From: Methanopyrus sp. SNP6
Lineage (GTDB): Archaea > JAADCQ01 > Methanopyri > Methanopyrales > Methanopyraceae
DNA length: 64,000 nucleotides
Direction of reading: 5' to 3'
NCBI RefSeq assembly: GCF_002201895.1
Contig: NZ_CP019436.1
Location: forward strand, 199,456 to 263,455
Both the position numbers and the translations under genes were made by a program. Positions 33,517 to 53,140 of the stretch are shown here, in pieces (position 1 is the first letter of the stretch; the number at the start of each line of letters is the position of its first letter). Under the pieces are notes generated by a model. It was not told where the DNA came from, ran no database searches, and worked only from the letters and a program-made list of their open reading frames with translations.

Positions 33517-33781
33517 CCTCGATCACCCCCCGCTGGACTTTTTTGCTAACCTTTAGGATAGAAGCGAGCACGATATCCGCGAGCGCCGGGTCCAGCCCCT
33601 CAGTTTTAAACCTCTTCCTCCACCTCTCCCGGAGCTCCTTTTCCCGCTCTTCGTCCGTCAGTGGTAACCCCTCTTGAGCCTTTACACGCCCTATTTCCCG
33701 CGCTACCTTCAGGCGGTCTATGACCGCGTCCAGTAAACGTTCGTCGATGCGGTCTATTTCACGTCTGAGCTCCTCGAGCAC
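33509..33781 (-). CDS. Chorismate mutase (AroQ class)
   Basis: Converts chorismate to prephenate for Phe and Tyr. About 90 residues, all helical: LEELRREIDRIDERLLDAVIDRLKVAREIGRVKAQEGLPLTDEEREKEL matches the AroQ first helix with the Arg and Lys ligands; LADIVLASILKVSKKVQ is the third helix. GTG 33781 has GGGG seven bases upstream and is preferred to ATG 33817, which would overlap the shikimate kinase gene by 59 bp. Next to aroK, so an aromatic unit. Confidence 0.9.
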   Translation of the reverse strand: MLEELRREIDRIDERLLDAVIDRLKVAREIGRVKAQEGLPLTDEEREKELRERWRKRFKTEGLDPALADIVLASILKVSKKVQRGVIEDG

Positions 33782-34601
33782 GTTCAGGCCCCACGGTCCT
33801 CGTTTCCAGTACCTCACCTCTATCAGACCAAACTTCGGATACCTCCCTAACGTCCGATTTCGTCTCGCAGAGGGCGACGAACGCTGGACCGGTCCCCGAG
33901 AGCCCTGCCGCCGCAGCGCCTGCTTCTAAAGCTTCGACCACGGGTTCGAATTCGTGGCCCAGAGCGGAGCAGTACACTGCCGAGTTGATCATCATTGCTC
34001 CCCGATAATCCCCCGTCATCGCCCTCCGGAAAGCGGTCTCGGCTGCAGGAGCTAGCAACTCGAGACGGTTCACATCCACATCCGAGGTTTCGACCTTACC
34101 ACCCGGGAGCAGGATTACCGCGTAGGGATACGGAAGCTCGCGGATATCCAGAATTCGGCGTTGATCGTTCAGCGTCAGCACTAAGCCACCTAAGTACGAT
34201 GCACAGGCATCGTCGTAGGCCCCCGTTACCGTCACATCTGCCCTGATGCTTGCCTCGGCGCCGAGTCGGACGACCTCGAGGGGTTCCGGCTCACGTCCTA
34301 GCTCTTTAAGCAGGGCTTCAACCACGGCGTTGGACACAGCACTGCTGCTGGCCAGTCCCATCGCAACTGGGATTTCGGAGTCGACTTCGATCTCGAAATT
34401 CAGTTCCTGACCGACGTGTTCGCCGACGACCTTCACGCACTGTTCAACGAGTGATGTGTCCTCCACGTCCGTGTGAATCTCAGTGGAATCGGAAAGTTCT
34501 GCTTTGACTGAAACCGTTAGATCTATCGCGTAAGCACAACCTTTTTTGGCGGAGATAGCGTTGACGATGGTGCCGGCGGCGTATGCCGTTCCTTCTCCCA
34601 A
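33759..34601 (-). CDS. aroK: Archaeal shikimate kinase (GHMP family)
   Basis: Phosphorylates shikimate; archaea use a GHMP-type kinase unrelated to bacterial AroK. 280 residues: GTAYAAGTIVNAISAKKGCAYAIDL at the start, the ATP loop IPVAMGLASSSAVSNAVV near 77, GAYDDACASYLGGLVL near 127 and the C-terminal GLSGTGPAFVAL near 230. TTG start with GGGGTGAG upstream. It overlaps the chorismate mutase start by about 23 bp. A GC-rich structured stretch lies directly upstream. Confidence 0.92.
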   Translation of the reverse strand: MGEGTAYAAGTIVNAISAKKGCAYAIDLTVSVKAELSDSTEIHTDVEDTSLVEQCVKVVGEHVGQELNFEIEVDSEIPVAMGLASSSAVSNAVVEALLKELGREPEPLEVVRLGAEASIRADVTVTGAYDDACASYLGGLVLTLNDQRRILDIRELPYPYAVILLPGGKVETSDVDVNRLELLAPAAETAFRRAMTGDYRGAMMINSAVYCSALGHEFEPVVEALEAGAAAAGLSGTGPAFVALCETKSDVREVSEVWSDRGEVLETRTVGPERARGAQT

Positions 34602-34621
34602 ACGTTCTCACCCCGGAAAGC

Positions 34622-34800
34622 TCTGATCAGAGCCCGAGTGCGGGCCCGCCCCGGTTCGGCAGGCGGCGGTGAGGTGGGAGGTCACCCATCGATGAACCGC
34701 CGTTCAACGGCCGGGGTACACGGGCGATGAGCCCCGTGGCCCGACCGGGCGGAGGCGGGCTCGGTTCCCGGCGATGACGCCACGGTCCCGTCGGGCGGGG
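34622..34800. other. Highly structured GC-rich element, possible RNA gene or leader of aroK
   Basis: Nearly 180 bp without a plausible protein gene but full of inverted repeats: GAGCCCG (34630) with CGGGCTC (34756), CGGCGGT (34664) with ACCGCCG (34695), and CGACCGGG with the later CCCGTCG. On the plus strand three CGATGA strings recur, two as hairpin loops: GGGC-GATGA-GCCC and GGCG-ATGA-CGCC. On the minus strand it would be the 5' leader of aroK. I could not fold it into a tRNA, SRP RNA or RNase P RNA. Confidence 0.4.
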
Positions 34801-34805
34801 CACAG

Positions 34806-35249
34806 TCACTCCATATTCTCCATCACAAACCGACACTCTTCATCATCGACGTCGATACTCACGATCCTCATCTTAACTCCGAAAGTCTCCTCGGCCGCCT
34901 TTAGCACTAGGGAGGTGAATGGACACACCACCGGGACCTTGTCACGGTTCAAGAGTTCCCGCTTCACATCCGAGAACGGACACTCGGCGATTATTAGCTC
35001 AATAGTATCCTCTCCTTCTTTCACTAGAACATCACCGACATCACCAAGTGATTCAATGGTTTTCTTCACGTCATGTGCTAATGAATTAGCCGTATCCCCA
35101 GTTATCTCTAGTAGTTCTTCATCTTTTATGTATTCCATCATTGCTCTACCTGCAACTCTATTTAGTGCCAACGCCATTTCACCGTGAGTCTCGAATAAGG
35201 CTTCTTGAAGCCCTACGATAAACGCTTTATGCACTCGTTCTCTCGACAA
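34806..35249 (-). CDS. Small V4R-like ligand-binding protein (uncertain)
   Basis: 147 residues. The N-terminal helix-rich part resembles the start of V4R/hydrocarbon-binding domains, and the C-terminal half has their order of features: IIAECPFSDV, VPVVCPFTSLVLKAAEETFG and ECRFVME at the end, where cysteines may bind metal or ligand. No fused partner. The gene is more A/T-rich than its neighbours, especially at 35000-35160. It follows srp54 by 4 bp, so it is cotranscribed with the secretion genes. Confidence 0.5.
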   Translation of the reverse strand: MSRERVHKAFIVGLQEALFETHGEMALALNRVAGRAMMEYIKDEELLEITGDTANSLAHDVKKTIESLGDVGDVLVKEGEDTIELIIAECPFSDVKRELLNRDKVPVVCPFTSLVLKAAEETFGVKMRIVSIDVDDEECRFVMENME

Positions 35250-53028: not shown

Positions 53029-53034
53029 ATGGGG

Positions 53035-53140
53035 TGCCGCGGCCGGGATTTGAACCCGGGCCCACCGGATGGCCATGGGCCCGCGGGATACCCGCGGGCC
53101 CTCTTCAGTCCGGCGCTCTCCCAGGCTGAGCTGCCGCGGC
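53035..53140 (-). tRNA. tRNA-Phe (GAA) with an intron after position 37 and C at position 8
   Basis: Acceptor GCCGCGG pairs CCGCGGC; position 8 is C; D arm GCTC/GAGC; anticodon stem CCGGA/TCCGG with loop CTGAAG|A (anticodon GAA); T arm CCGGG-TTCAAAT-CCCGG; A73. A 32-nt intron (53071-53102) splits the loop at 37/38, the canonical archaeal site, and carries a strong GGGCCCGCGGG/CCCGCGGGCCC hairpin. CCA is not encoded: after A73 the gene reads CCC. TATA-like AGTTAAATAG at 53171-53180. Confidence 0.94.

Follow-up and report, generated by a model that had tools for sequence, protein, structure and literature searches.

The closest described counterparts of the locus reported here are the archaeal H/ACA guide sRNAs of Pyrococcus and Methanopyrus kandleri. 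Among productive Pyrococcus H/ACA folds, 14 of 15 have a 10-bp GA stem and the ACA box follows at 14–15 nt (PMC4652768); an excerpt of the same paper gives 14–16 nt from the pocket-closing pair as the criterion for an ACA/ANA box. With the Pyrococcus guides Pab40/HgcG and Pab19, our element has in common the RNA class, the kink-turn of GA and GAUGA, the ACA spacing and the presence of several motifs per RNA, but the guide strands differ and orthology is not claimed (PMC4652768). In M. kandleri, six H/ACA sRNAs are supported by RNA-seq (Su et al. 2013, PMC3695527). These six share genus and class with our element, which is probably one of them and may hence already be listed. A literature search for Methanopyrus kandleri together with ACA box sRNA returned nothing beyond PMC3695527.

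The element lies in a 64,000-nt stretch of Methanopyrus sp. SNP6 (the window), where a 204-nt gap (34602–34805) separates the shikimate kinase ORF (aroK; 33759–34601, minus strand; a GHMP kinase by Pfam) from the next ORF (34806–35249, minus strand). The latter, of 147 aa and located between srp54 and the element, was without any Pfam match. The original prediction had described a GC-rich gap with no credible protein frame, no tRNA pattern and three CGATGA strings, and our analysis agreed on each point. The G+C content of the gap was 73% versus 58% for the window; the ORFs within or crossing it were of 30, 33, and 69 aa, none of them credible, and protein coding was rejected; a tRNA search gave no match at the locus, and a tRNA was likewise discarded. 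CGATGA occurred on the plus strand at 34690, 34725, and 34772, and three copies in such a stretch were reached in 0 of 5000 Markov resamplings (mean 0.05). From its anatomy and conservation, the gap very probably encodes an archaeal H/ACA guide sRNA on the plus strand. This RNA would comprise two H/ACA hairpins, both of which show a pocket, a kink-turn (GA / GAU-GA) and an ACA (Table 1). The element had earlier been placed at 34622–34800; the ends that we assign are shifted to the right, and near the left margin of the gap a conserved CACCCC (34609–34614) fits a ribosome-binding site, since the minus strand there reads part of GGGGTGA. Judged from sequence, this GGGGTGA is likely the aroK ribosome-binding site and lies outside the sRNA.

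Table 1. Positions in the window of the predicted H/ACA guide sRNA, its parts and the adjoining aroK signal
Feature	Position	Strand	Basis
Whole element, very probable H/ACA guide sRNA of two hairpins (approximate ends)	34628–34805	+	Conserved block in 5/5 genus genomes; structure counts; strand test
Candidate aroK ribosome-binding site GGGGTGA	34608–34614	-	Sequence; 6 nt before TTG start (34601–34599)
K2, possible long-range kink-turn enclosing H1: GA 34630–34631, stem 34632–34636/34721–34725, GAUGA 34726–34730	34630–34730	+	One compensatory change in G004
H1, first H/ACA motif, 10/5/9 geometry, ACA 34718–34720	34648–34720	+	Alignment, pair counts, fold of H1 alone, published geometry
H1 5' guide strand CGGCAG	34657–34662	+	Pairs with 16S from nt 14; 8 pairs including two preceding nt; invariant 5/5
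H1 3' guide strand UCAAC	34704–34708	+	Pairs with 16S nt 7–11; invariant 5/5
H1 kink-turn: GA 34671–34672, apical stem 34673–34690, bulge GAU 34691–34693, GA 34694–34695	34671–34695	+	Sequence, covarying apical stem
H3, second H/ACA motif, ACA 34802–34804	34731–34804	+	H1-only model matches in 5/5 elements; pair counts
H3 pocket strands	34738–34743 and 34787–34794	+	Pair counts
H3 kink-turn, GA and GAUGA	34752–34753 and 34773–34777	+	Pair counts

The element was detected in 5 of the 41 genomes searched, these being all five genomes of the genus, with 71–92% identity in the four relatives; a plasmid search gave no match. The alignment of the five genomes spans 185 columns, in which MAFFT misplaces a few bases of G004 in H1 and H3, so that the pair counts for G004 are conservative. 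In the whole drawn structure, 94.7% of 243 cells were paired, and seven pairs carried changes on both sides, a number reached by 1 of 500 shuffles and compared with 0–2 in slid controls. The covariation that the original prediction had proposed to seek among other Methanopyrus genomes was present in these five. Its suggestion of a new non-coding RNA was supported as regards a structured RNA, but this RNA falls in a known class, the archaeal H/ACA guide sRNAs, which that prediction had not weighed.

From its 5' side, H1 consisted of a 9-bp lower stem, the 6-nt CGGCAG, a 10-step GA stem (8 pairs plus tandem GA) and a 6-bp apical stem, followed on the 3' side by the GAU bulge, GA, the 5-nt UCAAC, the lower stem, and then ACA. 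With pocket strands of 6/5 nt and a distance of 14 nt between the pocket-closing pair and the ACA, it corresponds to the 10/5/9 fold, subfamily 65, which is the geometry of productive Pyrococcus guides (PMC4652768). Folded alone, H1 gave a closely similar hairpin in all five sequences. Its stems varied with pairing kept (94.7% of 114 cells), and the three pairs of H1 with changes on both sides were not beyond shuffles when counted alone (182/500). In the alignment, the H1 kink-turn of G004 reads GGU-GA and not GAU-GA, and the pair beside GA is non-standard in H1 of G003 and G004. A covariance model built from H1 only, R1, matched H3 in each of the five elements (37.7, 31.9, 27.2, 20.8, and 20.7 bits; highest E 0.023, 17 loci given), and of the H3 copies a genome-wide R1 run reported only that of G004 (E 8.4e-5). 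H3 had the same parts as H1, its ACA following the pocket at 15 nt; its GA stem comprised 8 pairs and 2 GA steps with one bulged nucleotide in G000–G003, and in G004 all 8 positions were paired when aligned by hand.

These structures give the first and third CGATGA a role as the 3-nt-bulge/GA strands of two kink-turns and not as ordinary loops, and the GGCG-ATGA-CGCC hairpin loop read earlier gives way to the better-supported GA stem and kink-turn. The other loop of the original prediction, GGGC-GATGA-GCCC, fared no better, as its closing pair is lost (U/U) in G004. That alignment column pairs instead with the distant upstream position 34632, by G-C in four genomes and by A-U in G004, which suggests a long-range GA / GAU-GA kink-turn, K2. 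This covariation amounts to a single event in five sequences. Nearest-neighbour energies take no account of kink-turns, and by them a local 5' hairpin is preferred to K2 by 1.4–2.7 kcal/mol. We consider the chances about evenly balanced that the middle CGATGA forms this third, long-range kink-turn.

No Rfam family was found at the locus at the gathering threshold. In a permissive scan of 34400–35000, the best two of four matches were archaeal H/ACA RNAs on the plus strand, which gave a lead to the class but did not prove it. They were HgcG (RF00064, Pab40; 19.3 bits, E 0.0031, model positions 198–268 only), short of the gathering score of 77 bits, and Pab19 (RF02794; 20.9 bits, E 0.48), short of 55 bits. 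Whole-genome HgcG matches were weak, and 8 of the 14 control genomes gave them too; the highest-ranking match was this locus in G001 (E 2.3e-4), and in G000 the locus was not listed. An HgcG orthologue was rejected because the score was far below gathering, the guide strands differ and weak matches occur in those control genomes. On the guide RNA reading, an unexplained gap becomes an annotated guide RNA gene, one that Rfam misses.

The element stands directly 5' of aroK with the ribosome-binding site at its edge, and the original prediction had considered a cis-regulatory aroK leader, that is, minus-strand mRNA whose hairpins would control aroK translation or processing. The five-genome alignment offered 243 structure cells in which both sides carried letters; 25 of them were G-U and none A-C. 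Therefore the structure is kept on the plus strand, opposite aroK, whereas a minus-strand transcript would lose part of it. The folding energy of the whole gap was only modestly unusual (z -1.65 on the plus strand, -0.35 on the minus strand), and the kink-turn and ACA motifs are present on the plus strand only. A leader of this kind is accordingly very improbable, and the element is most likely a guide sRNA that runs antisense to the leader of aroK and belongs to a known RNA class. By eye, no promoter was evident on the plus strand. Still less credible is a C/D box sRNA, a reading invited by the resemblance of the three GATGA to C boxes, by a CTGA at 34623 and by the abundance of C/D sRNAs in M. 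kandleri (126; PMC3695527). TGATGA is absent from the gap, the single CTGA falls outside the conserved block, published C/D lengths are 55–97 nt (PMC3695527), and the GATGA of H1 and of H3 each face a GA across the stem, as in H/ACA kink-turns.

A more serious alternative concerns the number of working hairpins. We looked for H3 targets in 16S, in 23S and among 30 tRNA loci of G000, with a shifted register included, and none was convincing; in the rRNA scan, none was beyond shuffles (388/400 as high, and 190/200 in a second scan). One long match was dropped because it lay in sequence flanking the 23S gene, outside the gene itself. The H3 pocket strands are moreover complementary to each other (GCCCGAC/GUCGGGC) in four of five genomes. 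Only H1 might then be productive, with H3 being structural or decayed and its pocket strands paired together; against this, the pocket geometry of H3 is kept, its GA stem covaries and the self-pairing is broken in G004. We regard an RNA with H1 alone productive as possible, though somewhat doubtful.

For H1, the guide matched the 5' end of 16S around U12 (ACUCCGGUUGA-U-CCUGCCGGA) with 5+8 pairs, formed with GUUGA (7–11) and CUGCCGGA (14–21) and leaving U12-C13 unpaired. U12 was the best site of H1 in all four 16S genes examined; it was the best-scoring site in 16S and 23S of G000, G001, and G004 and in the 16S of G003, and in G000 also when the 30 tRNA loci were included. The score was equalled by 10 of 2000 shuffled guides and by 1 of 1000 resampled rRNA sets, which puts chance at about 0.1–0.5%, before the invariance of both guide strands is counted. 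When 16 H/ACA-like hairpins were scanned alike (14 loci, two elements giving both hairpins), two H1 copies scored highest (32), and most others were not clearly beyond shuffles. From these sequence matches, H1 is predicted to guide pseudouridine formation at 16S U12, one precise prediction for an organism whose growth approaches the upper temperature limit of life. We take U12 to be U17 in E. coli numbering, a base on the 5' strand of the universally conserved central pseudoknot. Our literature search, which covered its sources in part, returned no published statement on pseudouridine at 16S U12; this is not proof of absence.

The genome carries genes for Nop10, Gar1 and a synthase of the TruB family (Cbf5-type). 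By the known mechanism of H/ACA guides, L7Ae would bind the kink-turns of the sRNA, Cbf5-Nop10-Gar1 would dock on the pocket and ACA, and H1 would pair with 16S nt 7–11 and 14–21 for Cbf5 to convert U12 to pseudouridine.

The predicted target also recalls the eukaryotic U3 RNA. According to an excerpt of PMC4340053, box A'/A of yeast U3 pairs with 18S nt 6–22, and U3 binding excludes folding of the pseudoknot. Nearly the same rRNA stretch would be held by H1 (16S nt 7–21). However, U3 is a non-modifying RNA of the C/D class, whereas H1 is a predicted H/ACA guide whose pocket would present a uridine, and no homology is claimed. It is conceivable, though improbable, that the Methanopyrus H/ACA sRNP sits on the central pseudoknot of 16S at its 5' side and times its folding during ribosome assembly, besides or instead of pseudouridine formation at U12, while a nested third kink-turn offers L7Ae a further site. 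A guide that simply modifies is likelier, and the folding role is a long shot. If true, the folding role would amount to an archaeal equivalent of that of U3; the portion of the review PMC8339473 on this topic describes U3 and folding-only snoRNPs as not known in archaea.

Outside the genus, a strict guide pattern gave 37 matches in 34 genomes among 389 archaea, none of them a convincing copy. The GA stem was assessed for all 37 (25 + 12), and 35 had at most 5 of 8 GA-stem pairs. One of the other two (L052) had 7 of 8 GA-stem pairs but 2 of 9 lower-stem pairs. The last, in G239, had 8 of 8; it lacks GAU before GA and resembles a protein-coding stretch, and on these grounds was taken as chance. 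Read as protein, it is by eye what we take to be a conserved stretch of glycyl-tRNA synthetase. R1 with strict filters in 394 genomes gave one non-genus match, in G120 (E 0.07). Restriction to the genus is provisional, the search having consisted of the strict pattern and R1, without G-U-paired guides or 10/6/9 spacing in other archaea.

The G120 match (L059:1501–1572), from another archaeal family, is weak; its lower stem pairs well and AGA stands on the 3' side, and G120 may have an H/ACA RNA here. Within the genus, R1 also flags more H/ACA-like loci. Besides this locus, it matched five other places in G000, outside the window (L062, L065, L068, L070, and L071; E 7e-4 to 0.13), and judged from the model these hairpins may be other H/ACA sRNAs of the genome, some of them perhaps corresponding to the rest of the six known from M. 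kandleri; L062 adjoins a tRNA gene. In G002, the 3' guide of an H/ACA-like hairpin (L064:1501–1588) matches 23S at about 1588 of G000 with 8+5 pairs, and 6 of 200 shuffles scored as high. Elsewhere in the window, ARAGORN calls the tRNA at 53033–53140 (minus strand) Ile with anticodon tat, and its Rfam match covers 106 bases, which makes an intron or a misread anticodon probable.
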